Shown: one piece after another, positions 1 through 43,745 of the stretch | Position numbering within the stretch: position 1 is the stretch's first letter | Layout of the letters: the number at the start of each line of letters is the position of its first letter | Assembly (NCBI GenBank): GCA_014871385.1 | Contig: CM026426.1 | Coordinates: 68,440,674-68,504,673 of the forward strand | Direction: 5' to 3' | Length of the DNA stretch: 64,000 nt | DNA from: Ceratodon purpureus | Taxonomy: Eukaryota > Streptophyta > Bryopsida > Pseudoditrichales > Ditrichaceae | Notes under the pieces: model-generated | What the model was told of the DNA's origin: nothing | Seen by the model: the letters and a program-made list of their open reading frames with translations, nothing else | Databases searched by the model: none | Translations under genes and position numbers: made by a program

Positions 1-1799
1 ACACAAGAAGACGAAGACGGGGTAGATTCCTCTCGCTGCAATTAGCCGTCACTTTCCGGATTTATAGGAGTAGGTTTCGGATCGGGAGATCCGGATTATT
101 CGTAAAGTAGGATTCTAGGTAGATAACTAGGGATTAGGGTTTTTGATTGAACTGCCGGCGCCGCCGCTTTTGTGAAAGCCCCTGCTTACTTAAACGGTGA
201 AGGCGATGCAGTCCGGGTCTTTGTTTTGCATGTTTTCTCCCTATATTCCTTATCAGTAAAGTATTCGTGTTTTGCAAGTACTGTGCGTGGTTTCCAGTTA
301 AGTGTGAATGATCCGGGAAGGATATGAGAGTTCCGCTGTAGCTCGGATAGGAAGGTGATGGGAGTTGTGACGAGACCCAAACCGGAAAGGTAATGGGATT
401 GAGCGGAAAGATTTAGTGGATTGTCGTAGGAGTGAAGCCTCACTGTTCCGTCCCCAACCCAACCTCACGCGGAATAGCCGTCGCTAGGGTCGAAGCGGAT
501 CGAGGAGTACTTGATCGGGCTCCCTGAACTTCTGAAGAGGTTCAGTACAGTGTGAGAGGGGGATTCGGAACGTGGCACGGGTCGCCTAGGGATAATCGGA
601 TCCTAGTTCTCCCAGATCCGGATTGGTTTGTCGTTGTAGTCTCACGGATCGGAAGTGGTCGTCTGCATGACCTGCTGGCCAGAGTACTCTAGGACAGTTG
701 TGAGACGGTAGCCGTTCCGAGACGTTGGGGTTTGTGGACGAAACAGCTGACGAGAAAGAGAAAGAGAGAAAGAGATAGTCGAGGAGTTACGTTCCGGAGA
801 CACTATCCGAGCAGTGGCAAGGCTCGGAACTATTAGGAGTAACTACTTGGTGAAACACTATTGAGTCCCTGGACGATACTCGGAACCTAGTGACAATACG
901 GAAGTTTGCGCTCAATTGGAGTGCTATCCGGATGTTAGTTGCGTTTCCGTGTTCCGACACAACACATTGAAAAAGTGAGAACAAGATGGGTCTGTTGTTG
1001 TCGGAAATCACGTTTGATGCCACGGGGACCTCCGTCTGTGAATTGCGGTTGTAGAAATGACAATGACCACTTAAAACAGAAGTCCCGGCGGACGAAAAGA
1101 GACCGAATCATTTGTGAAACTTTTTGGAGTCTAAACGGAAAATATTGCGACATTGGAATATGTTTTTGTGAACGTTTTCTTGATATTGGTATCTCGGGAA
1201 AAAAAAAAGTGAAAAAAAAATAATTACAAAAAAGAGGTTTCACTTGAAATTCAGAGCAAACAAATTGACAGTTGGTCTCAAGTGCCCTAGGACAGTGCCA
1301 CGTCGTAACTAGTGGTTTAGCAGTTTCATGGGAATCACATTGGTTGCCTCAAAGTTAGCGTGCCGTCGCTCGTGCGGAGATGCAAATGCTGATAGGGGAC
1401 GGTACAGTGATATTATGGTAAGGACACTTCGGTGGATGGAAATTCGGAAATGGAGAATTTTGAACTCCTGCGTCTGAAGAGCTCTGTTTGGTAGGGTCTG
1501 TAGGATGGGAGGCAATGGGAGTTGGTAATGCAGTTGGGGTGAATAAGGTGCATATGTACGAATAATCCCGGGAAGATGTTGGGTTAGATAGGAATATTCA
1601 AAAGCCTACCAAACAAATGTCGACGCCTATTGGTTGGGGGGTATGGAGTCTAAATGTTACGATTAGGGTTCCGGGCAAATTAGGGATCTTTTCAGACTTC
1701 AGAATGAATCAACGTTGACGAGATTTGCAGCAAATCCGGGGCAGAGAAAAGCTGATTTGGAGAAGCTGATTTGTATAGGAGAGAAGAAGGAGGTAGCTT
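1..1799. other. Left flank without a supportable gene
   Basis: No open frame here has a recognisable domain; the short frames look random. The stretch 1000-1058 closely resembles 20808-20866, which lies inside a small inverted-repeat element further right, so part of this flank is probably an old copy of a related non-coding repeat. The last 60 bases become rich in GGAGAGC-like units leading into the proposed left end of the large MULE-type element. Confidence 0.5.
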
Positions 1800-1995
1800 G
1801 TACGTGAGCGCAGAGCGGAGAGCGGAGAGCGGTGAGCGGAGATTTGGAGTGCGGAGAGCACAGAATGGGGGACAGAACCTAAAAATAGCATTTTTAAACT
1901 AAAAATATAATATATAATTAGAAGATTCGAATATTCAACGTATATTTTTAGAAACTTACTTATTTTAGTAATTTAATTGACCCTATAACCGTGGA
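1800..1995 (+). repeat. Proposed left terminal inverted repeat
   Basis: Contains a GGAGAGC-rich tract (about 1805-1860), the 18-base block at 1851-1868 and the 17-base block at 1979-1995, each found inverted near 15.7 kb. An acttattttagtaa motif just before the second block also recurs inverted near 15.62-15.64 kb. Alignment is patchy because of indels. Confidence 0.5.
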
Positions 1996-2754
1996 CTAAT
2001 TACAGTATTTTCATTGAATTTGTAGTTCGTTTTCTCTTTTCTTGGCAATTAATTTTTTGACGTGCACCAATTACTATGCTCCAGCTCCCTCTAACTAGTT
2101 CAGGCATACATTAATTCCCCTTATCCCCTCACATTCATATGCAAATTACTACTTAAAATGTATTGGTATTGAAGCTTTTAAGAGGGATCAAGTAACATTT
2201 AATATCGTAACATTTTCTTAACATTGCTATAATTCATCCGCCATAGTCTACATGCCTTTCATCTTCTTTTTTTTTTTTTTTTTTTTTTTTATAATTGTCT
2301 TGTATTTTTTATTAACTTTCTTTATTCTATCTATCATGTTAGAGGGGTCAAAAGCCTCCTTTCATTTAATTTTCTCTTTCATTTTATTTTCACATTCATT
2401 TTCTTAATCTCCTTCATATTATTTTCAACCTTAATATTAATTTTTGCTTTCGTTTACTTTTATCTTTTTAATTTCATTTTTTATAAATGTTTATTTTTAA
2501 ATTTTTTTTGCTATTATGATTTCATTATTTTTTTCAATTTTTTTATTAATTTTTAATCGTAAATGACCTCTGCTAAACCCTCATCTTTTTCCATTCAGTT
2601 TAGGAGGATGACAACTTTTAAATGAATGAAAAGCCGATTTTCAAAGGCGCCAAGCATCGTCTTCAGGGATATTTAAAATAAGATTATGGAATGTCTCTTC
2701 CTCTTTTGTGTTGGTGTTCTGTGAAGCTCTTTTCTGTAGTGCGGGACAGCAGTT
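1996..2754. other. AT-rich spacer with poly-T run
   Basis: An AT-rich, low-complexity stretch with a run of about 22 T near 2269-2290 and many T-rich blocks. No coding frame is supported. It separates the proposed left terminal repeat from the small acidic gene and may hold that gene's promoter, but I see no specific element I would defend. Confidence 0.5.
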
Positions 2755-3216
2755 ATGGAGGACGTCAGAGATATTGTTGTTTCACTTACTGACGATGTTT
2801 GTCCATTTCAACCATATGTTGAGGTGGAGGACGAAGAAGAGGTGATGGCCAACAGCCAAGGGCGTCCTTTGACAACAGATGTTGATGTACAACCGGATGT
2901 AAGAGCTGACCCTCCACGTTCAGAAAATTCAGATGATATCATAGTGCTGGAGGAGGACGCAGATGTGCCTTTGCAACCACATGCATAGTCCAAGGTTGGA
3001 AAGATCCCAAGGGGAACCTATTCCAGGGAATCAGTGAATCGGAGGCGGGGAGGTGGGCCATTGCTGAAACGTTCATACCAAGGATACTTGCCAAGTGTGG
3101 GAACGAAAGTGAATGCGAATGTAGTTTGTTCTGTAGTACAGTCAGAGGCTGGCATTCCTGCTGATAGTGTAGTGGGCAACCCTAAACGTGTTAGGATCGA
3201 AAATTATGACATCTAA
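2755..3216 (+). pseudogene. Small acidic accessory protein of the MULE-type element, interrupted by one TAG
   Basis: A single reading frame of 153 codons from ATG 2755 to TAA 3214-3216, broken only by TAG at 2986-2988. The first half is very acidic and holds two SUMO-interaction-like patches, DIVVSLTDD and DDIIVLEEDAD. The second half is basic (VNRRRGGG, PKRVRIE), resembling nuclear-localisation stretches. It is convergent with the transposase gene, whose frame ends about 240 bases away at 3459. This tail-to-tail layout recalls the second gene of MuDR, but I see no sequence similarity that would prove kinship. I do not recognise the family. The TAG could have been CAG (Gln), which would restore one frame. 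Function unknown; a regulator or nuclear partner of the transposase is a guess. Confidence 0.5.
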
Positions 3217-3458
3217 TAACAAGTATATGTTTGTTGTAATAAATTGTACATGTTAGGGGATACGAGTTATATAGTGCACTTGTTCAAGATAGAATGTATT
3301 GAAATAGAATGCAATCAATGTGTAGGACAAAGCCTTTATAATGAAAAAGTCAATACAGCTTCTGAATAGCTGACTTAGTACATGGTATATTACTAAAATC
3401 ATTCAGTACGTGATCAATGGCCATTGTGGAAATGGCAGTTCTAAAGTAGGACGGCTAC

Positions 3459-6400
3459 CTACTTCTTTGCCAAGGGGTGACACAAGATTCCACTCTCTAG
3501 GAGTAGCTTGACCTCGTTGAAGCTAAAGGTAGGCGCATGAATGAAAAGCTCGGCTTCGGGATCACGGTTGCAGACCTTCAAGAGTATGTAGTATAGGTGC
3601 TTACAATACGTGAATTGAGTCTTGCCACGGAACGTAGTCATCGTCTTCTTGAATGCTAGGCAAGTGCAACCAGGGTAAGAACTGATGGTAATCTGGTACC
3701 GTGTGATGTGTTGAGCGACGCCCAAATCCAGCCCAATGATGCAACCGTGGCCCGGCTCAGGTATCATGGTGACGAAACGGAGGCGCGCTTTAAGAGACTC
3801 GGAGGAGCCCATGGACAGTCGCTGCGCCGGATTGGGACGAGTGGCAGTGCGCTTCACCATCTTGCCGTCTCTCTTGCCTGGGTAGCGGCCAGCATCTGCA
3901 CGGACTGGCACCGAGCTGAGATTTGCAGGGGGCGGGGCAGAGGAGAATAGGCATCTTGGAGAGACCGGCTTCTTCGGCGGAAGTTGAAAACCTGCTGCTT
4001 CAAGGGCAAGAATCTCGGTGAGTTTGAGGTTAGTACCAAGTTTCACTGGCAGACCTCTGGAATGGAGGGGAATTCCTGGTCCTTTGAGTAGTGTGCTACC
4101 CACTTGCGCTTAGAGCCTTTCACGCAACGCTCAATATCGTCGGAGCAGAAGAAGAATTCTGTCTTCTCAACTGTGTTCCTGCGGTAGTTAGTCCAAAGCC
4201 TAGTGTAGGTCGGGGCAGCTGTGCAATGGGGCCCCCTGACAATTCCCTCAGTGCACTTCTTCTTCGTTTCAGCTCTTTGGGCCCAGCAGCACTTCGCAGA
4301 AAGTTTGTGAAGTCTCGAGATGTGCCACTCTTTCACGTCGACCTTGGTTTCTTCAACCGCGTTGACATGGCAAATGCCGCCCTTGTTCACAGGTGAAGGT
4401 AAAGGGGAATCAATTGCCTGTGCAGGAGATTGGGTACCTTCTACCTCGGTGTCGTGTTCGGAGTCGTCTTCCACAATGACGGGCATCTGCATAGGGCGAG
4501 CCCTGACGGCACGTCTTGGGCCTCTTGGGCGTGAGAAGTTTGTCTTGTCCGGGCAATAGGACTCCTCGTCAGCTCCGATGGGGACGTCGGCTTTTCGCTT
4601 CTGTGAACCAAACACTTCCGCTCCAGGCATGATAGGCTGACGGGTGCAGAACTCATCCGCTCCTGGCATATCAAGCATGGGGTCATCGAGCAGTGTAGGA
4701 TTTCTCCATTTCTTCGCGTTGCGTTCTGCCATCCGGAGCCTCTGTTCCTTCTTCGATGGTCCTGTTCCACCGACGTCACCTTTGAGGAACTGGTAGTAGT
4801 TAACAACCTGTAGAAAAGCCCGAACGAAATCGTCCATGGTAGCAACGTAGAGGTCGTTCCTGTTGTTTCCTGAAGCTTGGAGCCACTTGTTGTGAACTGT
4901 TTCGGCGAGGTTATAGGTGGGCATCTCTGTGAGTTCGTCTTCCGTGAATTTCTGCAGATTTGACAGTAGGTGCCGTTAGTTTCACCGATTAGAGTTTTGT
5001 AGGTTAGGGCTAGGAAATTAGTATCAAAAACATCAAAACAGAGTGCAGAGATCATACTGTGGTCATGAATCCCCCCCACTGGCGGAAGCGGTGGTGCCAG
5101 AATGACAGCCACTGATCGAGTTTGATAAGTCCGCTCTCGCCAATGACCCTGGTGGATGCCCACCATGCTCGCAACGCGTGGTACAGAGTGTCCGCCTCTG
5201 CCATGCTGGTCGCATTCTTGTACTGAGTGTGCATCTTCTTGTGCTGTTTCCAGAATTCTTCGGGGAAGTGCTTCTCCGTATACTGGACCATGTTCTGAGT
5301 CCAGTGGAACAAGCACGACCTCTCCCGGTCCTCCATTGGGTCCTCTTTGTTGCCATTGCCGTATAGGATTTGCACTGCATTCTAATTAACTTGTGCGTTA
5401 TCCGCCATGAACCCATTGAAGTTTGGCGTTGCAACGCCATTGTTCTCCATGACGAGGGTGAGGTTTTTCCAGAAGACGAGCTGGGCCTCCGTGTCCTCGG
5501 ACTGCATGACGCAAGTGGCGATTGTCATCATGCGGCAGTAGGTGGCGTCGTACACGTGGCAGGCCATCGTCGACCACTCTTTTACCCGTCGCACATGGTC
5601 AAACATGATCCAGGCGTTCTCCAGATCTCTGCCAGGTTGCATTCGACTGACCAAGTCGACACCACTACCCGGCCCGACCTCCGACATCTTGAAGACAGAG
5701 ACTTTGTCACGCATAGCTCCATGACCAGGAAACTTATTCTCTTGGACAAACGCTCACACACTGTTTCCACGGAGCTTGGTGAAAATTTCCATGACACCGT
5801 ACCTTCTGATGATTTTGAAGGTCGCGACTTTGTTGCGGATGTTTGGTGACGCCATGTCTTTGCATTGATCCAGAACTGGAACCAGCTCCTCCATCGTCTG
5901 CTTCCTCGGTGGTGCGTCCTCGGGCTATAGCAGATAGCTCCCGATGGGATGTTTGCTCGCCTCCAAGACAACGGCGCTCTTCGTTGCTTTGTTGTTCATC
6001 TCTACCTGCTCTTCTATTAAGCTTCTAATTTCTGCTTTAGAGTCTCTGTAGTCTCCAACTTTCACTGGATGATGATGTGTTCCTATGTGAATACAAGCTC
6101 TAGTCTGATTCGCTTTGCCCACAACGCAATAAATCTTAGCCTCGCATGTAGCTACACATGATGGAGGTTCTTTACATACCTTGCACACTAGCGTGGATTC
6201 AGATGGAGGAGGCTGATCCATGAGAAAAGCTTGCAGGGTACACCCTTCGAACTCAATCTCGTTAACCTCAAAGATCTTGGGAACACGCTTGAGGAAGTCA
6301 CACTCCTTGTTGCTGCAGCGCAGCCATCTGACGCAGGTGGAACTTTGAAAAGATAGTCCGAAGTTGCTTTTGATGTTTGTTGTGATGGTCTTGGTCCAGA

Positions 6401-7139
6401 ATTGTCCGTCGTATCGTTTGTCCATTCTTTGCATTGACTTGGCGGCGAGCTTAGAGGATCGTGCAGCAGCTGGGGGCAACTCAAAAAGAACCGGACCATC
6501 AAAGTTTGCAGGCAAGTACTCTACTCTCTCGTGTCTCATAGTGGAATAGTCTATCTTCTTTAGAATGTTATTTGACCCACGCGCCTTCGCAAGCTGTTGA
6601 AGGAGGGAGACAATGCTACCTGTGAATTGGGACAATGGAGGAGACACATTGGAAGGAGGAGCATCAGCGTGGACCTTAGGCACCAACTTGACGGGACTGA
6701 CTTCGTCATCAGAGGAGAGAGAAATGATTGTCGGAGGAGGAGGTTTCTCTACGTCTGATGTTTCAGTATCAGGCTCGACTTTGACCTTGACATCACGAGG
6801 TAAGGGAGTCTGAATTGTGCAAGTAGAAGAGCGAGGGAGGGTGAGGATCTCAGTGGATGCAGCCATCAGAGAATTAGTAAGACCATAGACTCTATAGGAT
6901 CTAGGGAAGAGTCTCCACTGCAACATATTGTTCTCATCTCTCACTGAAGGTTGCCCGAGGGTGTGGGTAACCTCCGCTGTAACGTCATCAAAGATCTTCT
7001 CCTCTATACTGATGGAATCCTCACAGAAATGGAATCTGAGACTCAGGCAAAGAGAGGACACTGTAGCTAGACCATTATCATCTACGCAAAACCTAAGAGG
7101 GATTCCCATGCCCTGGGCATACAGACAGACCATCCCCAT
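3459..7139 (-). pseudogene. Mutator-like (MULE) transposase with SWIM zinc finger, decayed
   Basis: About 1190 codons in two exons: 7139-5058 and 4953-3459, with a GT/AG intron between. The start is the first in-frame ATG (MGMVCLYAQG). Reading order: an N-terminal region; a SUMO-interaction-like patch IISLSSDDE; a Cys/His-rich DNA-binding-type region ending THHHPV (about 6050-6330); the DDE region with YDATYCRMM and FMADNAQ; a CLFHW motif and a helical segment ending HALRAWW; an acidic linker with PVIVEDDSEHD; and a C-terminal SWIM finger, CTC followed 18 residues later by CKH (about 3590-3680). This order is characteristic of plant MULE transposases. The gene is broken by TAG at 5925-5927 and 5382-5384, TGA at 5754-5756, and a frameshift near 4065-4095. 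Outside these points the frame is clean, so decay looks recent. Not functional as read unless a sequencing error or recoding is involved. Confidence 0.85.
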
Positions 7140-7732
7140 GTTCGCAGGCAACTCTGTAGTAGTAGTGGAAGAAGGGAGAAGAGTGAGTGTAGTAGCCAAG
7201 TGGTATCGCAAGAGCAAAGTGAGAGGAATGATGCATCGCTGTTGATCATTTTATTCTAGTTGGAATGTCCATGTGGACGACTAGGTAATGATTCATTCTG
7301 TTACGTAACGAATGTATGAATTAAGAGAGACGGCGCTAACTAATTAGAGTGTTGCTTTTTGCAGGCCCAATTATACTAAGTAGGAGTTTTTAGAACTACG
7401 CATTTAATATTTGAATCGTGGAACCGATTCTATTCGATGCGAGGGTTGGTGAGATTAGAGTGGGCCGTCAGTTCCTTCCATATTTAATACAAGTATGCAA
7501 GTGGTTAATTCAAATCTTTTATAATTTTGTGGGATTCGTTTTTTCTCTAATAAAATAGATTGATGCCATCAGCTTTAATTCAAAATGCTTTTCATTATAA
7601 ATTTTAATATTTTAAGTCAGTTAAACAAAAGGTAAGTATTTAGGGCTGAGTCAGAGGGGTTGGAGGTTTGGGATGCTGGGAAGTTAGAAGCGGAGCTATA
7701 TTGTGAGGAGAGTTCCTTCGTTAGTTAGACAC
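7140..7732. promoter_or_regulatory. Divergent intergenic region between transposase and the CTD-like gene
   Basis: About 590 bases separate the minus-strand transposase start from the plus-strand gene beginning at 7733. The sequence is AT-rich from about 7500 to 7630. Because the two genes diverge from here, it is the natural place for both promoters. I see no certain TATA box or other defined element. Confidence 0.3.
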
Positions 7733-10206
7733 ATGAAGGAGAGTGGAGGGTCAGCTCCCTCCACTTATGTCACTCCTAAACCTAGAAGAAAAGCATATGG
7801 TACAGATTTTACGAATAGGAGAGCGAGGAAGAGGAGAGAATCACGTAGAAAGGAGAAGTCGAAAGGCAACCTCTTGAATGCACCTCTGAAGGTTCGAGGA
7901 GCTGGGTTGCCTTTGGCAATTAAATTTTCTAGCATTCGTAAACTCATTCTAGAGTCCATAGTAGAGGTGGAAGAACAGGATTTAGACGACAACGTAGTTG
8001 AGCATCAGGAGGATGAGGTAATAAGTAGCGAGGAGAAAGACATAGAGATGACGGAAGAATTAGGGTTCAATTCCACTCCGATTTTGGAGACACCGCAACC
8101 TTCTTTCGGATTCAAGGAGTGTTCAATAAGAGGGACGGATTCACAGTCGGGCGACCATTCTAACACGGATGTGGTAAGTTTCATAACCGATAGATTAAAA
8201 TATGGTAAATATAAATTATGTATTTTTGTGGAGTTATATTAAGTTAGAATTAATGTCTTCGCTGCGGATTTATTTCATTACTGTTTAGAATTGTGATGCC
8301 GCCTCAAACCGAAAGGTTGTTCAGAATAAGAGTCCTGAAGTAGTAATACTCGTCATAGTCTTAAACATTTGCACAGATTGTCGAATGGTTTAGGATTGAG
8401 GAAGAGCTTGGACAGGAGAAGACGCCAGAAGTGGATGCGGGCGAGGAGTCAGATCCTGAGACATTGATAAAAGTCGCTCGGAGAGCGAGACGTGAAATTA
8501 TGGAGGCGGGCAAAGGTGGGGTTGTAACAGCTGCTAGACGAGCGGGGCGAGGGCACCCTGGAAGTCCTACTGGGACTAGTGGGGAGGATGTTGATTCGCT
8601 CGACATTGCGGTAGGCCCAGGAGAAGAGGATATGGATGAGGGGTCGGCCCGAGGGAGAGGTCGAGGGGCCGAGGTGGGGGGTCGAGGGAGGGCTAAAGGT
8701 CGAGGTGGGAGAGGGAAGGCTTCTTCGCAAGCCCCATTCAAAGACACACCTGCGGCACCGGACGAGAGAGAGACTGTCAAGGAGATGGAGGGGCGAGGAG
8801 AGGAGCGTGTGGAGGAGGAGATGGCAAGTGAGCAAGGTGGATCGGACCGCGGCCCTGCTACCGAGGAGGTAAGGATTCGTGTTAGATGTATTGCGGTTGT
8901 GGGTGTGGGTGTACAGGGAGAGTGGATTGAATACGTGAGTGTTGTAGAAGTCAAGGCCGCGGTGGAGATTGTGGGGGAGGAGGGGGAGGTTGTTGGGGAG
9001 GAGAGGCGCAACTTGAATTGGGAGATGGAGGCAGCCATGGCCGCGGCCCATGTGAGGGGAATCGCAAGCTTAGACACGGCCTCTGCTGCAGTGGATCCCG
9101 AGGAAGCGAAGTGTAAGGAAGGGTTTATTTAGCAGTCTGCAGCCACTGCCGCGATGTAGGAAGTGGGTACTGAGGCGGATTGGGAGGTGGGTACCGCAAG
9201 CATAGACACCAAGGTCGCGGCTGCAGCCACTGCCGCGATGTGGGAGGTGGGTACCGCGGCGGAGAGGGAGGTGGGTACTGCAAGCATAGACACCATGGCC
9301 GCGGCTGCAGCCACTACCGCGATGTAGGAGGTGGGTACCGCGGTGGAGTGGGAGGTGGGTACCGCAAGCATAGACACCATGGCCGCGGGGGAGAAGCCTC
9401 ATGAGGAGAGGCATTCTGTGAAGAATGCCCCCCATGAGGAGGGGGAGGATTCGGGGAGAGTGGTGGCGGAGGTGGGTACCGCAAGCATAGATGCCATGGC
9501 CGCGGGGGAGAATGCCCCCCATGTGGACGGGGCAGCTGTTTGGAAATTATTTGAATGGAATACAACTCTTGCTTTTTTTTATGATGTATTCTTTTCAATT
9601 CTTATAATCTGTATACCGTATGTTTTGTAGGAGTTCACGGATCAACTCACTGCGACTGAAGCTGATGGTCCAACTCCTGCAGAAACTGAGGTAATTTAAT
9701 CAATTTTTCCTTTTTGTATTGAACTTGGCATTTCCTTTAGAAGTTTTGTAAACTAAAATGGTAACTTGACATTGTCTTTGTTCCTCTACTTGTAGGTATT
9801 CTCAGATGCACCCTTGTCCATCAGTTCCCCGATTACAGTGATCAATGTTTCCGACCTCTCGGATTCATTTGATCAGCCCTATTTATGTAGGTGTGATTTA
9901 GAAAACCCTGTAGGTTTAGGTAGTGGACCTCTCGAGGTCCACTCCCCTCAGTACATGCCTACGTCTCCTGTCTATGAGCCTACATCCCCAGGCTACATGC
10001 CTACTTCTCCACGACTTGGTACCCCGCCGATGTCTCCACCTTCTCCTTCCTCGCCTATTAGAGTGAGGAGGCTAGCCCATGTTGTCTTCGCTCTCCCGGC
10101 GATACTACCATGCCCTGTCCAACAGACCAGGCATTTTTGGAGAAGGCGCCGACACTGGAACTGTAGACAGGCTAGGGAGTATTATAGCCGTGCTCCACGT
10201 ACATAG
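7733..10206 (+). pseudogene. Low-complexity nuclear protein with CTD-like YxPTSP repeats, upstream of the methyltransferase gene
   Basis: Exons I can support: 7733-8173 (ATG 7733; basic RRKEKSKG-type stretch then acidic), 8377 to about 9540, 9631-9690, and 9796 to TAG 10204-10206, all joined in phase 0 with GT/AG borders where clear. Exon 2 encodes a Gly/Glu/Arg-rich segment, then tandem EVGTASIDTMAA units. Exon 4 holds ITVINVSDLSDS and YMPTSP/YEPTSP/YMPTSP units, close to the RNA polymerase II CTD heptad. In-frame TAGs at 9130, 9157 and 9325 break the repeat region; at two of them the neighbouring repeat has TGG. The stop at 10204 is also TAG. The next exon at 10360 is in a compatible frame, so this may be the N-terminal half of the ParB-methyltransferase protein rather than a separate gene. 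Function unknown; recruitment of transcription-linked factors is a guess. Confidence 0.5.
9133..9520 (+). repeat. In-frame coding minisatellite (EVGTASIDTMAA units)
   Basis: Four imperfect copies of a unit containing gtgggtaccgcaagcatagacaccatggcc lie near 9187, 9268, 9355 and 9472, interleaved with gcagccactgccgcgatg blocks. The repeat length keeps the reading frame. A TGG codon present after ATG in one unit is TAG at 9157 and 9325, which dates the stops after repeat expansion. Confidence 0.7.
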
Positions 10207-10359
10207 TGGCCTATGTACTACTTACTACTGATGATGATTGGTTTTCCTGAAGACATGTACCAGTAAAGGAAGCTATTGTTCTATTCTTCTTCATAATTGT
10301 TTTACTTCTTATGATCCTTGTCTTGGAAACAAAATTTGAAAATGTATGACTTCTTGCAG

Positions 10360-13300
10360 GTAACTCAGACACAGAATATGTTGCTAGCGCCATCTTGTCC
10401 TCCTGATTTCACGACTGCAGTGGATCGTGAATTGGGACATTGTGTACAGCACAAAGTGGACTCCATAGGCATGATCAACAACCTCCGAATACTTCCAAAG
10501 ACAAAGTCACGTATCCAAGTTTCCCTTTGCCGAATGCTCTCAATGGCAAGAGTGCGACCTGTGGGAGAAATGGAGCGAGAGTTTGTCAAAGGCTATAGAG
10601 ATGGAGACAGAGTCATGTAGATTTCCATGTACAACCACGAAGAGAAGACAGCCGATGTCACTGAGGAGACCAAGGCTAAGTGGAGCCCCTGTTGGCAAAA
10701 AGCAAATGATGCTTTCGAAGATGAGCTCTTGGCCGACCCGGATTGGAAGGAGTTTTCTGGGAAGATGTTCTATGTCTGGGAAGGTAACCATCGCCTTGCC
10801 GCATGGTTCAGACATATCAACAAGCATCACAGCGACGATCCAGCATGGCACATCTCTGTGCATTGCATTGTTCTTGACCCACGCGGTCATGTAGGAAACC
10901 TTCTTTATGCCATGCATGACATCAACTGGTAAGAATTAACTCCCTCTACTTTGTCCACCCCTCATGAACGCCGATTCAACTAGTACTTTATGCATATTAT
11001 TAACTACCGTCCATTTGTTCAGGTCTACAGAAAATTATCTCGTGAAGAGTAATATTCCGGCAAAACTTTTTCGTATTCGCTCCTTTGGTGTGATAAAATT
11101 GGAGGAATTCAAGGATCTCCTTACACCACAGGAGTATCATTTATCATTGAATCACAAACGAGCTACTCCATCCTGGTTTACCTTGCCATCAAAAGTCGTT
11201 ATCGCTTTTCTTTATCGTGTAAGCTCTTGTTCCTCCCTCCCTCACGCTTCCATTCGACAATTGATTTACGCTGCTTCAATAAGTCGCTAAAACATAACTC
11301 TGTGTTCCAGCGAGAAATTGTGGTTGCCTCTGACGAAGCTGCCAGAATCTACAAGGAGAAAACAGCCACTGAAGACCAAACTGCGACTGGTGTTTGGGAT
11401 GCCATGACTACGGCTTCAAACAACATGGTGGAATCCATTAAGAGGAAGGACTTCACCAAGTACTTGGCAATTGCAAATCCCAAGAATGGTGACGACTTCC
11501 TAAATGAAGTGAGACCCTGACCTTGGTTGACTTCAGTATTTCGTTTGACTACAGCATATTTGTATTCATATTTTCTAAAACTCCTCTACTTGTTGCAGAT
11601 TAATCGGCATTTCAGTGACTTCCCTAAACCTGAGATGTCACTCGATAAGCTCCAGAAGATTGTTCCCGCAGCAGTTGAGGCCAAATACAAGGCTCGTTGG
11701 TTGAGGTGGTGGAACTCATCCCCGAATTCCAGTCTTTCTTACAGATTCCTACCACTTGAATTCAAGGATACCAAATTTGACCCATGGTTGAACAAGGCCT
11801 CATTCTGGGCTCGGGTATAGTTTCTTAAAAAACCTTTCCAATTACATTCTCTATTATTCTCTTCCTCAATTCTTTCTCATTGCTAATGAATTGAATTCTG
11901 AATTACAGTTGGAGGAAGCCGTCATCAACGAATTTGACGACATTTGCAAGGCGGAGAATCTCGTTATCAATTGGAAGGCATTTCCTGAAGTCCAAGAGCC
12001 AAGCGATTATGTGGAGAGTTCACGTATCCTGTTGTGGGACAAGGCCTTCCCTACGTTCATTGGAAAGACAGCGGATAAGCCCTTCGACAAGAAGTCCATT
12101 TTCGCTAAATTTCCTAGAACCGCTCAGGTTGTCAAGCGTATTACTTACCGGTACGTTACTAACCTTTACAAGATTTAAATTGCTAAATGAGCTCTCTATA
12201 TCTTTCTAATACTAACCTTCTACAAATTGGTTTCCTTAGGTACTTCAAGCGAGAGCTTCTTTTGAAGGGGGCAATCAAGGTTCCGCAGCTCCCTAAGTAC
12301 TTTAGTGCTTTGACGCCGAAAACCTCTGACCACTGTATCTATTCTCCCAAGCAGTTGAAAAGGTAGAAAACTCCTCACTTGGTTGAAGGATGCTGTTATC
12401 TTGATTGCTCTCGTGGTTTCACGATTCACTCAGAGGTTGACGTCAAGACTCTACATGATGGGGGTGAGGTTGTGGTCGAGGACTCCGTGGATGATGCAGA
12501 AGGTCGTGAAGGAGAGTAGGATCAGTCTTCTGCTCCTCCACCGAAGAGAGGGAGAGGAAGGCGACTGAAATCTTTGCGTTCTCAGTCAGAGGCATCACAT
12601 CAGACTGGGGCGGAGTCTTCCGCGCCAGTTGACAAGGCACCAGAGCCCTCTCCAGGTATTGTTGTTACGAAGCATTCTCCAACTTCTACGCCGGCTCCTT
12701 CCTCGATCAGTGCTTTCAAAGTCACCACAGGTCTCCTTGAGCAAAGGAAGGCCAAGCAGTTTCTGCAGACTACTTCTTACGCTGGAACACCGCTATCCAC
12801 ATAGGTTTATGTCATCAACTCTTCTGTGGATTCAATTATGCTTCGACACAACGAGCTCCAAGACATGGGTGGCGATCACAAATGGAACAAAGCTCTAGAC
12901 ATCGTTAGAAAGGTATGATCCGTTGCTTACTGCTTTCCCTTTAATACGTACATTACTGTAAATCTTATAGTGTCTAACTCTGTTTTCATGGTTCCTCTAG
13001 TTTGGAGCAGGCCGCCAAAACCGAGTTTCTGATTGTTGCAAACAGCAGAATCACTTGGGATTCGACTTGATCATTGCCGACATCCCTGAGAATCTTCCCG
13101 TCCCTTCGGTGTCCGATCCCCCCGACGTCATTCCACCTTGGAACACTCGTGATAAGGATTATGTGTGGAACATCTTCGATTTCGCAAGACATTACTTGTA
13201 GTACGATGGTATTTTTGCATAATCCACAACAACGACCAAGACCTGGCTGCGCATATTTCTGTACAGGCTAAGGACAATTCCTTCATGCAGCACCGAGACT

Positions 13301-14343
13301 GGTGGGGCTTCAATGCACTAGGCTTGGCTCACCCTACGATCCCCGGCTCATTGGTATGTACATGATAATCATTCTTTGTCTTTGCATTGTGCTAAACTTT
13401 CTTAATATTTACACTCACATGTTTTGGTGTCTCGCAGTCTCTTCGCTTCTGGGTGCGCGTCTTCATCCGTGGTGGCCATCCCCCATTGAAGTTTTCTTTT
13501 CAAACGAAGAAATCCGATGTCGTATACAGCGACCTCCACATTACCGAGAGTGATGCCATTCTCAACTTCACCGATTTGGAATCGCAGCACATGAATGGGG
13601 ACGTACCATGGAGAGGGCCAACGGAGAAAGCCTATGAGATGATGCAGACCATAATTGAAGAGATGTCCAAGCCCGGAGACATTGTCTTTGAGTAGAAGGC
13701 TGCAACAGGTAATCTTATATAAACTGTTTCTGCGTTTCCGTTTTTATGATTTTCTCCACATAGTCTTAATTTTTTGTTCTTGTGCTACAAGTTGCAGGGG
13801 CCTCCATCAAGGCTTGCCAGAGTATTGGTCGCCATATTAAAGCTTGTGAGGAGGACAAAGCCATATTCAACGCCCTTCTCAAACCGTATATGGCTACGTC
13901 ATCCGCCATGGGCCCTCCTAAACATCCTAGACCGGCAGCAGTTGAAGAAGCACCTCCAAAGAGACCACGACAAGATAAGTACTGTAAGTTCTACTTTACA
14001 TTTTCTAACTTCAGGACTAGTTCTCTTTGCTTCTTTACTGATTCCCTCTTCACCCACTTATTCTTACCACTATTGATTTTCTCTTGCAAAGTAGTTGCGG
14101 CAACACCGCCACGTAGGCCAACACGCGTGTGTATTCCATCGTGGCGTCTTCATTCCAGCCCAATTCAGCCTTATGTACTTCCGGACTATGCAGAGGGCTT
14201 GAATCTGGTGCACTTAGATACGTTCCTAGTCGGCCCACTAGTTTTGATCCCAGGGCCCTTCTCTTTGTCGATGAAGAGGCTGTAGAAGGAGATTCAGAGT
14301 CATCTAGTTCTGAGAGTGGAAGTAGCAATTGTAGCATGTTGTG
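10360..14343 (+). pseudogene. ParB-like domain fused to a DNA N6-adenine/N4-cytosine methyltransferase, transposon-borne
   Basis: Exons by GT/AG borders and frame: 10360-10928, 11023-11218, 11311-11508, 11599-11814, 11909-12150, 12240-12912, 13001-13353, 13438-13708, 13798-13983, and a last exon from about 14093. The first exon reads like a ParB/sulfiredoxin-fold domain: LRILPKTKSRIQ, then FYVWEGNHRLAAW (compare the ParB G-x-H/R-R-x-x-A motif), then ISVHCIVLDP. The middle is helical and unrecognised. The C-terminal part matches a beta-class (motif IV before motif I) methyltransferase: FDLIIADIPENLP stands where the DPPY/W catalytic motif is expected, then DYVWNIFDFARHYL, and later EKAYEMM, KPGDIVFE and AATGASIKACQSIGRHIKA, the AdoMet-binding motif. 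Bacterial and phage proteins joining ParB and N6_N4 MTase domains are known. The copy is broken by TAG at 10618, 12364, 12517, 12802, 13199 and 13693 plus a frameshift near 13220. The DIPE and AATG variants would themselves weaken catalysis. Confidence 0.6.
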
Positions 14344-14630
14344 AGTTTGAAGGAGGCTTCGGTCTATCATTGTTTTCATTTGATTTGATTTGATTTAATT
14401 GGAGTTGATTGCGTAATCCTTCGTATACTCTACTGCAAACCTCCTAAAGTAGTTATGATTCTCATTTCCAATTCGTATCTGTGTATGTAAAGAATGAAAT
14501 GTCACAACTGTAATGCTCAAAATGTAACATGCACAATGAAATGTTACAACTCAAATGCTCAAAAAATATATATAATGCTCTAATTACTTTCTTAATCATT
14601 CAATATCTCGCATTTCCATAGCCATGTTAC
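14344..14630. other. Spacer after the methyltransferase gene
   Basis: AT-rich non-coding sequence with a short gatttgatttgattt repeat near 14381-14396 and repeated aatgtcacaac/aatgctcaaa words. Probably the 3' untranslated region of the methyltransferase gene. No terminator or poly(A) signal can be fixed with confidence. Confidence 0.4.
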
Positions 14631-15132
14631 CTATTCTTGGGAGAGATCCAGATACCATCTCTTGGAGTAATTTTCTCTCCTTTCGGCACATCCAAGACCT
14701 GATTCCCATTGGCCCATAGCAATGTCCTCAACTGATTTAACTCAACGCAACTAAGTTCTCCAAGGGACGCTGTCTCTAACCTCTCGTTGTAAATTGGAGT
14801 TGCAAGTTTCCAAGAACTCCTAAAAACACTCCAGTTGATGTTAAACCGATTAACTTCGTATTCGGACTTTCATGGCGACCCCCGTACGAAAAGTAATCCC
14901 ACCTCGCTAGCCGAAGGCATGCGTATTCAGGACTGCTGTCAATCTCACGCTTCCAACTCTTCGACACACCACGAGCGTTCTCGACGTCTTCAAACGTGAT
15001 TACCGTCGGAGGAGTCCAACCCTGCGTTGCACTACTACCTATATGATCCCAGGGGTTAGGCCCATCCGCCATCCGCTTAAGCAAATCCTGTAAAATCGTT
15101 TCACAGGCAACGACCTCAAATGAATCGCCCAT
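14630..15132 (-). pseudogene. F-box-like protein fragment, possibly captured by the transposon
   Basis: ATG at 15130-15132. The first ~110 codons include TILQDLLKRM and ARGVSKSWKREIDSSPEYA, the spacing and wording typical of a plant F-box (Leu-rich start, V/C-K-x-W-R/K, SPE). After a frameshift near 14800, a second frame continues with ETASLGELSCVELNQLRTLL and GDGIWIS-like residues to about 14640. The protein is short for an F-box protein and lacks a visible kelch or LRR domain. It lies between the methyltransferase gene and the proposed right end of the MULE-type element, so capture of a host fragment (Pack-MULE style) is plausible. F-box proteins act as substrate adaptors of SCF ubiquitin ligases; whether this one does cannot be told. 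Confidence 0.4.
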
Positions 15133-15658
15133 ACCTTCAAACAACTACAAGTGCAAGGTTAAGTTCTACAGAAATCATTGAGTTAATACAACTTCAAGGA
15201 TGTCTGCCAAGGTGTATATAGATCGTTTCTTGACACTTAAGCTAGGAATGGTCTTATCTAAAGACGGAGAATTCTTTGACCATGACATGCAGTATGACTT
15301 GGTATACATCTTGGTTTCAGCAACTCCATTATTGTACACGAACTCTGAAATATTCCACGAAGTTTTAAGACCATTTCTTCTTGCTTGTTTCGAGTTTTTT
15401 TTTCCTTATAATTATCTACATTATCTATTCAATCTAAACCGCTGTGATTTAAAAACATCATGCAGGAATAGTCGTATCTACATCCAATAAGGGACCAAAT
15501 CTAAAGGATTGTATGCATGACGTCATCATGACATCAGCCCTAATTTGTAACTCAGTAAACAAACTTAAGAAATTCTTACCGAAGAAAACCCTGAATTCCA
15601 CGGTAATATACTCTTTTACTAAAATAAGTAACAAAATCATGCCTTATTTTAGTAACTT

Positions 15659-15756
15659 TCCACGGTTATAGGGTCTACTTTGCTTTTGAAAATTTCGCTC
15701 ATTGTCAATTCTGTGCTCTCCATTCTGTGCTCTCCGCTCTCCGCTCACATACGAAC
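15659..15756 (-). repeat. Proposed right terminal inverted repeat
   Basis: Holds reverse complements of the left-end blocks: 15659-15675 matches 1979-1995 and 15720-15737 matches 1851-1868, followed by cgctcacatacg, the inverse of the left gtacgtgagcg region. A short duplication of tctgtgctctccatt occurs inside. The 500 bases before it (15140-15650) are non-coding. Confidence 0.5.
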
Positions 15757-18700
15757 TTTCCCCGAGAGGAGAAGGCCGACTCCGACTGCCAACCTATAGC
15801 GGGGCAAAGCAAACTGGGAACAGATGCCGAGGACCGAGGGTCACAACATATTGCACAGAGAGAAGGGGATGAGGTAGCCAGATTCTCTCGGATTCAGAAC
15901 AAGAACAACTCAACGCAGACACACAGCAAATCCATCAGCGATGAACTTTGTTGGTCCATTTCGACCCGAGAGGTTTGTTTGCTACTCTCGTTCTTAGGGT
16001 TTAGGGTTTTCTGCGTGAGGGCAAGGGTTCTACAAGATCGTGATGGTGTACACAGTAACTTCACGTACTAACTATGATTTTCCTTTTTTTGTGAAATTAG
16101 GCCACTATGCTGGAAGAAGCAGGACAGGCACAGCTGGCTTGTCGGAGCTTGCATACAAAGAAGGGAAAATTGTAAGTTCGTTGCTCTGATGTGCAGTTGT
16201 GAAGAATTATGTTTTTATCACATTTTGACCTAGTTTATACTCTGAGAATGTTTTAATTGAGGACAAGCATGCTTGGTGTGGGGTATTCCACCCTTCTGTT
16301 GATTTACTTTTGGAAAAGTGAGCATGTTGATTTCATTTTGCCAGGTTCATTGAAACTTATCATTGATATAGTAGATAAAATGCTGGGATTAGAAGTGGAG
16401 GGAGTGGTCCCCGTGCAGGACTGATTTGTAATTTAATTATTCACACAGGTAGAGAAGCTGGGACAAAGAGAACACCGTGCATCTTTGTACTTGCAGGAAA
16501 ACCGTTTATGAGGAACTGAGGAGATCTACCGAAAACTTCTTGACGTTATGCCTCACAATTACCAGTAAGTGATTTTGGTAATCTGACCTGCAAGTTTAAT
16601 ATTCATGATATTGTATTTTCGCCCATTTTTTATGAAGGTTTGGCTCTCCCTTTCTCATTTTCGCGAGCTCGTATTCATCTGCGTTTATTTCGTGTATGAA
16701 GGACTGCATGTTGCATCATCGTGCCTGGGAATTCACATCTTCTCTGTTTAGCTCAGGGAATGTTTCTTTCAAACTATTAGGGCTTTCTACTTTATGGAAG
16801 GGCAGAGGTATGCATTGTAGAATTTTTTCTTCTAATTTTTTGTTGATGTTGTTTGCTTCGAGGGTGTGCCTTCAATTCTTATGGTCCGTTGTACGCTTTA
16901 TAGTGTTCCCGGAAAGGTATGGTATGAACAGAAATCCTTTTCGTAATTAAATGAGTCAAATTCGCCATAGTAGTTTGAGACTGTAGAATTCGGCATTGTC
17001 TCATCGTTATGTTATGCTCGTTGGTAGGTTCATTCTAAACCTTTTTATGAAATTAGTGGTCTGAGTTCTGGACACCATCACCTCACGACGTTGTACGTGC
17101 TCATGCCTTAACACTTCGACATGCATGTCATCATCTGTGCTGCTGACGTCTTAGCCTTCTTTTGCAGGTTGAAATTTCGTTGGGAGTTTTTCTGTAAGTT
17201 CTCTGTTCACATCCAGCCCTTAGAAACATTTCCTACTAGATATTATATGAATGTTTTTCCAATTTGAAGCATATATTAGTGATCAGTAAAAACTGTTGGG
17301 ACATTGAAAGCTGGACTAGTGTACTGGTCAATGCCTTCATACGCTCATGGCAATGCCAGAGAAACGGGAGGATGAGGGAAACGCAGGGTACTTAGAGGAT
17401 GTCCAAAACATTGAATTTCGTGGGATTTCTAAAATTGAAATGGCTTTGCGTGTCCATCAAAGATCCACCACTATTGCAATTCTGAGTAAGAAGAGTAGTT
17501 CACCTGGAGGTAAATAATTACTTGTCCAAATTTTGCAGTTCTGATGTCGAAACTCCTCCGACCTACTTCCGTACTGTATATCTTCTTGCTTAGGTTTGCT
17601 GTTCTCTAACTTTTGATATTGATTTGGATCTTTCCAATTCATAGCTTCTTTTTTCTTTGAATTCTTTTTAAAGGACTGTGTTGTACATCTCAATTTGGTG
17701 GTAGAACCTATCCTTGCAGCACTTCGACTGAAGAGATCGACGCTATGAAGAGGCTCGATCTTACTTCAATCAGGCAATAGAGCACACGCCAAGAGTCACT
17801 GGCTTATATCATAAGAAGGTTCTTCTCTTGGATCTGTGCTCTAAATTCCTTGTCTTTATCTTTAACGCTTAGGCTCACTATAGTATTCGGGTTCAAAGGG
17901 CTCGTTCAGTATAGCTAGCCATGCTTTGGTTCGTTTGCTGTCGATAAACTTTGAAGTGTAGTGCGGTACCCATTTGTACGATTCGTATTAGAGCACTGAA
18001 AATGATTCTCTTCGGATCAGGGGACAGGCATCAGGAGATGGGTAGCTCGAAGAAGGCGCGTGCAAGGGCAACGATTGAAAGACAGCGAGAACTTAGATTG
18101 GAGGCCGACGAGCGTCGGGAGATAGAGATCTTGGAGCAAGCTGAGCAAGAGCGAATCCGTAAATTCAGGTATGTGCGAGGAGACTCGTTCAACCGGGGAA
18201 CAGCCAGGGGCATTGCATACAATAGTGCAATGTTGAATGTGAGCGCAATATTCCCCATGTTGTTAGGCTTGTTTGAGAATGATATGCTGAGGGGACACTG
18301 ACTGCACAGCATATGCTACAATCTGCGTGGGAACAAATTATTCTATGAACACAAGGCTGAGCTGAAGCGGGAACATCACCGGACATGGAGAAGTCGCTTA
18401 CGATCAGATGGGATGAGGGGTGGTCTTGACGATGCTAGTGGAGAGGGGCCATCTGCTGCAGAAGGCGAGTGTGAACCGGGCAGCAAAGAGCATCACATCG
18501 AGGATGAAGACCAGATTGTTCGTGACGGACTTGAAGGACAGGATGGCGGTTTGCCAAGCATGGAAGAGTCCCAGGAGAAAAATCAACAAGCCACCCAGAC
18601 GGCGGAGTCCACGGGAGCTGCTGGCGATGAGAATGAGGGGGACGGAGTGACGTTACGATACCGGAAGTGCAGGTGGGCTGCTTCGAAAGGAGTGAATCAA

Positions 18701-33992: not shown

Positions 33993-36105
33993 CTACCCGC
34001 TTGTCTGCGTGGCTGCATAGAGCACAATGGCATTCTGTAATGGGCTCGGTGTAGAAAGTCCGAGTGACTGCTGGCGTGCATCAGCAACCTTCCCTTGAGC
34101 ACGAGTCAACAAATCAACTGCCGCGTGGTGTGCTTCACCCTGCGTTGCGCAGATGGACTCGAGCCTCTGCACCTCCTCCCAAAAAGCGGCGTCTGCTGCT
34201 CGCAAAGTATCAAGGTCAGTGGCCAAGGACTTCACCTCCGCGGCCTTGTTTGCGTAATCTGCAGATGGAGCGCCCTCACGCAGAAGTTGCTTTGCCTCCT
34301 TTGATGCTGCAAGATAAGCTTCATGAAGTGCATCCGCGGCGTCGTCGTCCTCCTCACGCAACTTCTCCAAGGCGGAGTCGAGCTTCATCCGCGCCTCCTT
34401 CAGAAGCGCTTCTGTCTTAGCAACCTCCTTTGCTGCCGCTAACTCCTCCTCCTTTGCGCCAGCAAGTGCATCTTGAGTCTGCATGCTTTTGTTGCAAGTA
34501 ACCGCTGCTTTGCAAACAGGAAGCACACATTGAGGTAAGTAGGTCTTCATAATTCAATTGTGCGTGGTCAGTACGTAGATTCAACACAGAAGAAAACTCC
34601 CCATAAACCAGAGGCAATGTTTTAGTCTTGAGCTCGCAAAATTCCACCCTCATTTTTAGCAAATTGCAAAGACGTCAAATATCAGAAACAATGAAATGCT
34701 CTTCTGAAATGATATGGAGGCGGAAGTCATAAATGATTAAGCAAACCCTCGTGGTTATCTTTTTTTTTTTAAAAAAACATTGCAAGGATTGGTTGAGTAT
34801 CATTCAGTAGATGAGTACTGAAGACTCTGATGGTGGTGGACTCTACAATTTTTGATTCTTTCTACAAATTGGACTTTTCTAATGTGCAAAAAGTAGAACT
34901 AGTTTCCAATCCGCCAACACGAACTTCTGAAAGTTCCGTATTACTTTTGAGAAATTTCAAAAATAAATCCCAATCCGGGTATCAAGTGGTCTCACGGTTC
35001 ATACCCCCCAGCACCTTGCACGAATCAACAAAACAGTCCGCAAATTTATTCAATGCTACGATGTTAATTCTGATCTTATCCCTAATCAACTGACTTGTTG
35101 AGAAGTTGTTACCGCATATTTATCTTGATTATGTAGGAATCAATCCCAAATGTGTTCAGACTGGACGAGGCAATGAAAGGATGAAACAAAAAACATCGAA
35201 TACAACACTTTCACGAAACCTTAAAAGTAAAGAGCATCATCGTTACAGAGTAGAAAATGAAAGACAAAAAACGAGAAACATGTAAGCACACAACATAAAG
35301 GCTCAAAACAGATCCTCTCAAATTAGAAATGAAAGTGGAATATTACAAAGTGGAATAAAGCAAAGGCAGATGAAGAACCTAAAGTGGATGCCCCAGGGTC
35401 AAGGTTCACCGGTGCTGCGCTCCCGCACGACAATTGTGCAATAATTTTGCACAATCCTTTGACTTGGCAGCGCGTCGCCACCGGCCCAAGCTTCAGAGGA
35501 TTGCGGCGCTGATTCTTCAATCGAAGCGCCATGCGGGACATTGCTTCCGCAAGCCAATACACAGGTAAACCATAACCAAAAGTAGCGTAGCAAGCCCTCA
35601 AGAATCGGAGGGAATAATACGAATTGTCGGGCTTGTTCCCGTAGACTTTGAAGTACTGGATTGCAAATTGCTTTCGCTCAGCAAGATCTCTGCACCTGGA
35701 GATCTCGTACCGGTTTGGTTGACCACCTGGCCTCCACACGGCTACAATCTCCTCTTCGGTGATGAAGAAATAGGCCTTCGGCAAATGTTTCAGCAATGGA
35801 CCGTCGGCGCAGAGGCCCACCTGAGACATGAAGAACTCAGGGTCATAATGCGCATCACGCCCAAGCAGCATTGGTGCTGCAGCCAGCATGCGCTGACGAA
35901 CTTCGGGGAGGATTCCAGACAAATCAAACGGTTCATCGAACTCCTCCATTGTCACTGCCCGCCCATTCGATGGCTCGATGTTACTGCCCTCTGAAGAGGA
36001 GTCATCAGAAGCATACTGTGATGGAGCACCGTGACGAGTCGGGGGTGGACTGCAGCTTGGCTTCCGCTTGGTGCGCTTCGCCATCTGCTTGGAACGCGAC
36101 GTCAT
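33993..36105 (-). CDS. Coiled-coil protein of an unrecognised local family (copy B), apparently lacking the RING-like end
   Basis: ATG 36103-36105 (MTSRSKQMAKRTKRK). Exon 1 runs to about 35385 and exon 2 from about 34511 to TAG 33993. Exon 1 has a basic nuclear-type start, an acidic Ser-rich stretch (DDSSSEGSN), then the family's conserved domain: PFDLSGILPEVRQRM, APMLLGRDAHYDPEFF, VGLCADG, FKVYGNKPDNSYYSLRFL, LGPVATRCQVKGLC. Exon 2 is a long Ala/Glu/Lys/Leu coiled coil (ALHEAYLAASKEAKQLLREG). It corresponds closely to copy A (39279-41264) but stops after the coiled coil, at a TAG just where copy A also has an in-frame TAG. Past the stop I see no Cys/His cluster. Exon borders are approximate. 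Function unknown. Confidence 0.5.
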
Positions 36106-43129: not shown

Positions 43130-43745
43130 TTTTAATTTTTTTGATTTTTAGGATCTCAGTTTTGATATAAATATGCTCAGAACACACTCTCTCTCGTCAA
43201 AGCTTTGGTGGCTTGGTGTTCCGAGGCTTCGGATTCGAACTGACGTGGCGGCCTCAGGGTGCTGGTGCCGGGTTCGAATCCACCCTCCGACACCCACCCC
43301 ACCACGCTTACACGCCCGCACAGATCGAGTGCTTTTTTTAATTTTTTTTTTTCCTTTTATAAATTATTTTCACTGAAGTGTTTTTTTACCGGATATGAAG
43401 ATTTTGATGTAAATTGTTCTGTAGGAACTTCTTTACTATCACCGTGTTTTCAATACTTAGAATTTTGTTCAACCATTAGGAGAGTCTTGTATAATTCTAA
43501 AACCAATATAAGCAACTGAGTATCTAAGGTTCTTTCCAGAAGTATCTTTATATTCCAAAGTCTAATGTCTTTCTTTTTCAAAGAACACAAGTATGTTTCA
43601 GCAATTTATTATCTTCAGATACCATTCAATCTGCTACAAATTTCTAAATTCATTATACTTGTGAATTAAATCTTGCTACTTTGTTACTTCTTCATTCACA
43701 ATTAATCATTTTTTCCCCAGTTTCTAGCCCATTTAGTGGTAATCT
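43130..43745 (+). repeat. Third copy of the arm block with one SINE-like unit
   Basis: Matches 56390-56995 in the same orientation (and 37870-38460 inverted): SINE-like unit at 43190-43340 with a GGGTTCGAATCC B box at 43269-43280, then the unique block through ttctagcccatttagtgg. It lies alone, inside the loop between the two arms, and shows a few substitutions. Confidence 0.85.

Follow-up and report, generated by a model that had tools for sequence, protein, structure and literature searches.

The 64-kb stretch of DNA of the moss Ceratodon purpureus analysed here (hereafter the window; G000:C6:68440674-68504673) lies on chromosome C6, which has 110,524,308 bases in a genome of 362,488,568 bases. 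PMC8000587 describes the U and V sex chromosomes of this moss as a single chromosome of >100 Mb, amounting to ~30% of a 360-Mb genome, and the UV sex chromosome is most likely where the window is located. Positions 1788-15763 are, as read from the sequence, a decayed member of a high-copy family of DNA transposons, 14-18 kb long, that resemble the Mutator-like elements (MULEs). Within this one element, a transposase-like gene on the minus strand is accompanied by an accessory gene on the plus strand, whose predicted product joins a domain of the ParB/sulfiredoxin (Srx) fold to a domain derived from N6/N4 DNA methyltransferases (MTases). In most copies the two genes are separated by tandem arrays, many units of which carry palindromic sites, and the types of these sites follow the phylogeny of the ParB part of the gene. 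The following features of the element were annotated in the window:

1779-1787, no strand: left target-site duplication GAGAGAAGA, identical at 8/9 positions to its partner GAGAGGAGA at 15764-15772
1788-1860, plus: terminal inverted repeat at the left end, ~65-75 bp, short GNGAGC repeats
3462-4975, minus: transposase exon 2, broken in the window; SWIM-like end (CTC...CKHL); a 505-amino-acid (aa) open exon in the copies U009 and U021
5066-7250, minus: transposase exon 1, broken in the window; DATY ... ADNAQANWNAVR ... CLFHW in a DDE-like layout; open in U021 and U009
9137-9388, no strand: array of tandem units (84 bp x 3) lacking a dyad site, where the palindrome array lies in other copies
9796-10206, plus: conserved open reading frame (ORF) with heptads like those of the RNA polymerase II C-terminal domain (CTD; YMPTSPV YEPTSPG YMPTSPR)
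10360-10928, plus: accessory gene exon 1, ParB/Srx-like domain; one stop; lacks 15 bp that most copies have; GNHR box at 10783-10794
11023-11218, plus: exon 2, boundaries shared across copies
11311-11508, plus: exon 3, boundaries shared across copies
11599-11814, plus: exon 4, boundaries shared across copies
11909-12150, plus: exon 5, boundaries shared across copies
12240-12912, plus: exon 6, three stops; contains a basic, proline-rich stretch
13001-13353, plus: exon 7, MTase domain (first half); disrupted in the window copy by a stop and a 1-bp frameshift
13079-13090, plus: motif IV position, DIPE instead of DPPY/W
13438-13708, plus: exon 8, MTase; motif I KPGDIVFE at 13669-13692, then a stop
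13798-13983, plus: exon 9, remainder of motif I and the subsequent helix/strand
15694-15763, minus: right terminal inverted repeat; element terminus ...AACTTTCCCC
15764-15772, no strand: right target-site duplication GAGAGGAGA

Further copies were picked from the best hits (150 scored of 730 candidates, ranked by likeness to a C6-chromosome copy), and 18 oriented copies, the window copy among them, were compared. Given this ranking, we infer no sex-chromosome enrichment of the element. All but one (L023) share the right end ...ACTTTCCCC, with the variant TTTCCTC in L022. The left end was located from 10 kb of upstream sequence of four copies, of which three are complete. Exact 9-bp target duplications flank all three of these other complete copies, and terminal inverted repeats of ~65-75 bp built of short GNGAGC repeats are present in 4/4 complete copies, including the ~14-kb window element with its 8/9 identical duplication. 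A target duplication of 9-11 bp is a hallmark of MULEs, and by structure (inverted termini, 9-bp duplications) the element is to all appearance a MULE. The minus-strand gene, which we take to be the transposase from a DDE-like layout and a SWIM-like end spotted by eye, is open for 731 aa (U021) or 746 aa (U009) in exon 1 and for 505 aa (both) in exon 2; a profile search of these exons returned no Pfam match. Separately, we observed a copy (L009) that has inserted, in the opposite orientation, within a second member of the family (L026; C2, about 9.56-9.58 Mb), with a clean 9-bp duplication.

An earlier note on this DNA had proposed that a MULE-type element carries an intron-containing ParB-MTase fusion gene at 10360-14343. 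The peptides it quoted are there in the order it gave: FYVWEGNHRLAAW in frame at 10768-10806 within the open exon beginning at 10360, FDLIIADIPENLP in the exon beginning at 13001, KPGDIVFE at 13669-13692 and AATGASIKACQSIGRHIKA across the exon 8/exon 9 junction, that is, motif IV precedes motif I when exons 7-9 are read through. The exons at 10360-13983 are likewise present, as parts of a far larger element (1788-15763), and the MULE assignment holds for termini and target duplications while finding no profile support from the transposase. The introns, too, are borne out: after the partial copies L013 and L023 had been dropped, an alignment of 16 copies revealed nine exons with identical boundary positions. 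Among subfamilies, most differences in exon length are divisible by three; exon 4 of L024 and exon 7 in the window copy break this rule, as does L011, which is without exon 9. The gene ends are uncertain, namely the first exon, its link to the CTD-like ORF and the C-terminus beyond 13983.

The window copy itself is a pseudogene, with stops in exons 1 (one), 6 (three), 7 (one, plus the 1-bp frameshift) and 8 (one). Among the 16 compared copies, the joined frame is stop-free over 908-968 codons in seven (L011 without exon 9, L012, L014, L018, L019, L020 and L021), and the remaining nine contain 1 to 17 stops each. Stop-free is not equal to intact, as L021 shows by the altered acceptor ahead of its exon 2. 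Ratios of nonsynonymous to synonymous substitution rates (dN/dS) were calculated for 10 of the 16 copies (five of them with stops, which were skipped; L011, L017, L019, L024, L025 and the window copy were left out). For the whole gene they lie between 0.18 and 0.36 in all 45 pairs, and the gene is by this measure evidently under purifying selection. Exons 7-9 alone gave 0.25-1.30 across the same pairs, values that are noisy because dS is only 0.01-0.12 there, so that constraint among recent copies is poorly measured in this part.

These data bear on the possibility that the accessory gene is a passively captured host or bacterial fragment, as in Pack-MULEs, and has no function for the element. 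MULEs often pick up gene pieces, and the broken window copy, together with the stops in 9/16 copies, would suit such a view. It conflicts with the hundreds of copies, with the seven stop-free frames, with a dN/dS near 0.2 across deeply split clades and with metagenome relatives that share the motif IV variant described below at 34-38% identity. The measured constraint appears to have largely refuted passive capture already, and we consider it very improbable.

The encoded protein is predicted to have a ParB/Srx-fold domain at its N-terminus and, after a long middle part, a C-terminal domain with homology to N6/N4 DNA MTases. A query with the spliced translation of the window copy (968 aa, stops entered as X) found no relatives at E 0.01, while single-domain queries did match exon-sized ORFs from metagenomes. 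For the first domain, the leading Foldseek matches of one such relative (P0007) are ParB and sulfiredoxin structures, and the domain has the GxHR/GxxR box that goes with this fold; the structural comparison thus supports a ParB/Srx fold.

For the C-terminal domain, the METHYLTRANSFERASE of the window copy matches Pfam N6_N4_Mtase (PF01555) with 22 bits, under the cut-off of 26.7. The MTase part of this copy matches PHROG_3008 at 5.6e-9 and DpnA (PDB) at E 0.0017, the latter weakening to 0.09 with a three-sequence profile. The stop-free copy L021 passes the PF01555 cut-off (domain score 35.2 bits, full-protein score 31.5) with a match that covers the last third of the profile only and leaves the first half of the domain outside. 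This first half is linked to MTases through a sister family from the same genome, found with PF01555, one member of which (L030) matches profile positions 2-218 with one TGA inside. In a three-sequence comparison, the protein with DIPE in motif IV aligns with L030 at 31% over 231 residues (E 4e-25). The shared exon boundaries, the whole-gene dN/dS and the PHROG_3008 match therefore make the peptides more than chance, and the bacterial-type MTase domain of the earlier note stands. As in the DpnA/CcrM-type beta class, motif IV comes before motif I, in keeping with the matches to DpnA and PF01555. Tblastn searches of phages gave 21-38% identity among the matches listed (best 15 of 124 and 15 of 168 records); since these are spread over many phages, no donor lineage can be named. 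Elsewhere in the genome, two further PF01555 matches at or just above the cut-off (G000 C1:5958254-5958736 and C5:15306119-15306592) lie in frames of 567-569 aa that are unlike the transposon exons. The sister family itself (L030-L034; G000 C8, C12, C3, C3 and C1) is at least partly multi-copy, L033 and L034 being nearly identical.

The two signature motifs fared differently. Motif I has the S-adenosylmethionine (SAM)-binding pattern (D..xxGxGxx), with VLDWNAGTGAS and similar sequences in stop-free copies; variants among these seven are NAGAGAS in L020 and NVGTGAS in L018, and L011 ends at NAGT. The catalytic motif IV pattern (D/N/S)(P/I)P(Y/F/W) of N6/N4 MTases, in contrast, is replaced by DIPE, which the alignment places exactly over DQPY/DQPF of the sister family (five loci read, three aligned). 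All 23 distinct loci read have glutamate at the position of the aromatic residue (22 DIPE, and NIPE in L008), in a sample biased by its retrieval with a DIPE-containing query. By a genomic count that suffers less from this bias, DNA coding for DIPENLP occurs at 548 sites versus 2 for a reversed-pattern control, and the version with an aromatic codon at 2 sites versus 1 for its control. Four of six metagenome relatives, those covering this part, have DIPENLPVP; for two of these four, identity to the window query is 34-38% overall. Therefore, the change in motif IV is old and has been held. Since the sister family keeps Y/F in 5/5 loci read, loss of the aromatic residue is specific to the DIPE clade.

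The aromatic residue of motif IV stacks on the flipped base. With glutamate in its place, N6-methyladenine (6mA) or N4-methylcytosine (4mC) of the ordinary kind is most likely no longer made, and we regard the domain as MTase-derived rather than class it as an active aminomethylase, as far as sequence can tell. The element could nevertheless encode an active writer of 6mA or 4mC on its own DNA, with glutamate as a tolerated variant. In favour are the good conservation of motif I and the strand following it, the constraint on the gene, and a similar fusion in an Ectocarpus transposon, which is predicted by its authors to make 4mC or 6mA (PMC12477816). We nonetheless find an active writer unlikely: the base-stacking residue is missing at 548 sites with aromatic versions at chance level, its retention in the sister family makes the loss clade-specific, and the noisy dN/dS of exons 7-9 leaves constraint on the MTase part poorly measured. 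The 6mA- or 4mC-writing transposon envisaged in the earlier note finds no support in the copies; a search for intact relatives, as it advised, did yield seven stop-free frames, and DPPY/W in none of the 23 loci.

In a second line of evidence, we analysed the DNA between the two genes. Using Tandem Repeats Finder, subfamily-specific arrays of 84-242-bp units were detected there in 16 of the 18 copies (L013, and L023 with 96 bp x 2, are not counted). Many units hold an inverted repeat of about 22-26 bp. The best inverted repeat of each of 15 consensus units was tested against 300 dinucleotide shuffles: none of the shuffles matched it in L011, L012, L018, L022 and L025, and 5 to 16 did in L010, L014, L017, L019 and L020. 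In a common 24-bp frame, 13 arrays show a half-site of approximately CCNA[CG][AT][GT]TCG[GT], with L016 and L017 fitting most poorly; this frame leaves out L019 (a different palindrome), L021 (array outside the piece), L013, L023 and the window copy. The half-site CCTACTGTC is kept in units of unrelated-looking background, some 201-242 bp long and AT-rich, others 128 bp and GC-rich. By eye, the 128-bp units of L009, L010, L015, L017 and U021 have in common a start near GCGGAGGC and a ~10-base T-tract preceding the dyad site, and some of them contain a second, stem-like inverted repeat.

Across the 11 distinct sites, the mirror cells pair in 86% of cases, versus 35-47% when the frame is slid; the paired percentage is biased upward because the sites were chosen partly for symmetry. 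Stronger evidence comes from parallel changes at positions 3, 6 and 7. Changes on both sides were found in 7/11 pairs, a count reached by 51/500 shuffles, and the covariation score of the dyad arms is 0.431 versus 0.149 in shuffles (reached by 0/500). In the 18 oriented copies, a relaxed site pattern has 84 matches, spread over 12 copies; all of them precede position 2700. Extending L021 upstream (U021) adds four matches and brings the number of copies to 13. No match occurs in the 64-kb window, whose shuffled version averages 0.10.

We then related the sites to the phylogeny of the gene. A tree of exons 1-6 resolved five clades with support 1.0, and among the copies sampled the site types track these clades:

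L011/L012/L018: CCTACTGTCGT
L010/L014/L020: outer half as in L011/L012/L018, centre different
L009/L017: CATTCGG
L015/L021/L022: CAAGTGTCGG in U021 and L022; L015 with one arm altered
L016/L024/L025/window: CACATTCGG or CCACATTCTG

The outer half-sites are alike in the first two clades and related in L009/L017 and L016/L024/L025/window. The tree of exons 7-9 is incongruent with that of exons 1-6 for most copies. For dS between clades, among the 10 copies used for dN/dS, values of 0.33-0.85 (exons 2-6) and 0.5-2.6 (exon 1) contrast with 0.02-0.12 (exons 7-9); the L024/L025/window group is an exception, its exons 7-9 standing apart on a long branch (0.25). On the simplest reading, array and ParB part would form one inherited unit, and the MTase part and 3' end would have been exchanged or converted among most subfamilies. 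We also noted that, in most copies compared, the segment from the MTase through the 3' end is nearly identical across subfamilies with deeply split ParB segments.

These observations lead us to a model of self-recognition resembling that of VANC, a protein of the Arabidopsis VANDAL MULEs. The ParB-like part would bind the dyad sites of the array as a dimer, and the protein would thereby load on copies belonging to the same subfamily. Since motif I is kept, the MTase-derived domain would bind SAM; it would also contact DNA, acting either as an altered enzyme or as a non-catalytic module. Like VANC for VANDAL elements, the protein might relieve silencing in an element-specific way or assist transposition. 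That the ParB-like protein finds its own element in such a manner, with an altered or non-catalytic MTase-derived domain, seems to us evenly poised between true and false. More tentatively, we suggest a system like ParB-parS, in which the ParB domain co-diverged with its own palindromes and the exchanged MTase module, having lost its aromatic residue, became a SAM-binding effector or the writer of an unusual mark. The palindrome arrays lend indirect support to the notion of a protein that marks the element encoding it.

Several results weigh against this interpretation. In the shuffle comparison, the inverted repeats of 5/15 units (L009, L015, L016, L024 and the window copy) failed, being matched by 60 to 108 of 300 shuffles, and both the palindrome score and the site frames were chosen after looking. 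The relaxed pattern is missing from the scanned DNA of 5/18 copies (L013, L017, L019, L023 and the window copy), although L017 and L019 do possess other palindromes. The clades L011/L012/L018 and L010/L014/L020 differ only at the half-site centre, so that a rule of one site for each clade does not hold everywhere. On the protein side, the MTase structure model built from metagenome fragments (predicted local distance difference test score, pLDDT, of 47) is too poor to use. For the first domain, none of the Foldseek E-values is below 0.001, and no sequence profile, PF02195 included, calls it ParB. Since divergent members can miss profiles, the PF02195 miss lowers the claim that the protein is a ParB and leaves that of the fold. 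The reading of the earlier note is supported in part, for the MTase domain, the ParB/Srx fold, the introns and the MULE-type termini and target duplications.

The palindromes, moreover, could be read by the transposase or a host factor, the ParB-like protein as reader being our inference from sequence. In that case the arrays would be binding sites of such proteins, or hairpin satellites, and the ParB-like protein would serve transposition otherwise. Repeats are in general also bound by transposases and host proteins, and the second, different inverted repeat of some units is compatible with this. However, ParB-type proteins bind palindromic parS as dimers, the outer half-site persists across unrelated-looking unit backgrounds, and site type tracks the clades of the exon 1-6 tree (a clade comparison that left out the transposase gene). 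We therefore regard arrays unrelated to the ParB-like protein as possible but rather doubtful.

With respect to known systems, self-recognition by a ParB-like protein would recall ParB-parS in its fold and its palindromic sites; the likeness rests on these two and implies no partition role for the moss protein. A closer precedent is the Ectocarpus transposon Sola1-1_Ec32, for which PMC12477816 describes a protein of 1104 residues with ParB-like and N4/N6 MTase domains, encoded on the strand opposite the transposase and proposed by the authors to bind and modify the transposon's own sequence. The same source cites similar ParB-MTase proteins for transposons of green and red algae. The ParB-MTase fusion in a transposon is therefore not new. 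Sola1-1_Ec32 belongs to a brown alga and the Sola superfamily, in contrast to the MULE-like moss element with its 9-bp duplications, DIPE motif and dyad-site arrays; we compared the two by description. From VANDAL elements it is known (PMC5735166, PMC10398659) that the motif bound by VANC builds up in tandem repeats, located in introns and upstream regions, and changes with the protein. VANC and the moss protein are alike in being products of an extra MULE gene with a short motif in fast-changing, non-coding tandem repeats that diverges with the protein. The VANC motif is YAGTATTAY, and the string 'palindrom' does not occur in the main text of PMC5735166. Fast-changing tandem repeats carrying a short motif are indeed what the non-coding DNA of the moss element contains. 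VANC is not known to resemble ParB or an MTase.

What we present as a new variant is the combination of a land plant, a MULE, an altered motif IV and parS-like arrays. In the open-licence literature we found neither the moss case nor a land-plant host, MULE setting, fixed DIPE or palindrome arrays for such a fusion, which is no proof of absence. If the model is true, co-evolution of a transposon protein with a repeated motif for self-recognition has arisen in at least two MULE systems of land plants, the moss element and VANC. The conserved glutamate of motif IV would then be a natural experiment on a base MTase fold after loss of its usual active site. Since the proposed target is now visible as subfamily-specific dyad-site arrays adjoining the gene, function is directly testable.

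Upstream of the accessory gene, the ORF with CTD-like heptads has two or more repeats of the type YxPTSPx (range 2-5) in 15/18 copies, including the window copy. Its median dN/dS is 0.13 (101 pairs with dS above 0.1), and in L012 it matches Pfam RNA_pol_Rpb1_R at 8.3e-4 with 19.9 bits, slightly below the cut-off of 20.3. By eye, no conserved donor in the right phase links this ORF to exon 1. CTD-like repeats encoded by a transposon are unusual and unexplained.

Outside the element, three ORFs of the window were scanned (35326-36198 and 39594-41279 on the minus strand, 52216-54426 on the plus strand) without a convincing Pfam match; by eye they look related through a VYGxxPDN-like motif. The window also contains an inverted pair of ~1.6-kb repeats (37128-38718 and 56153-57773, 96% identity) with a partial copy at 43126-43768, and tandem units of 215-216 bp lie at or beside one end of the paired repeats.

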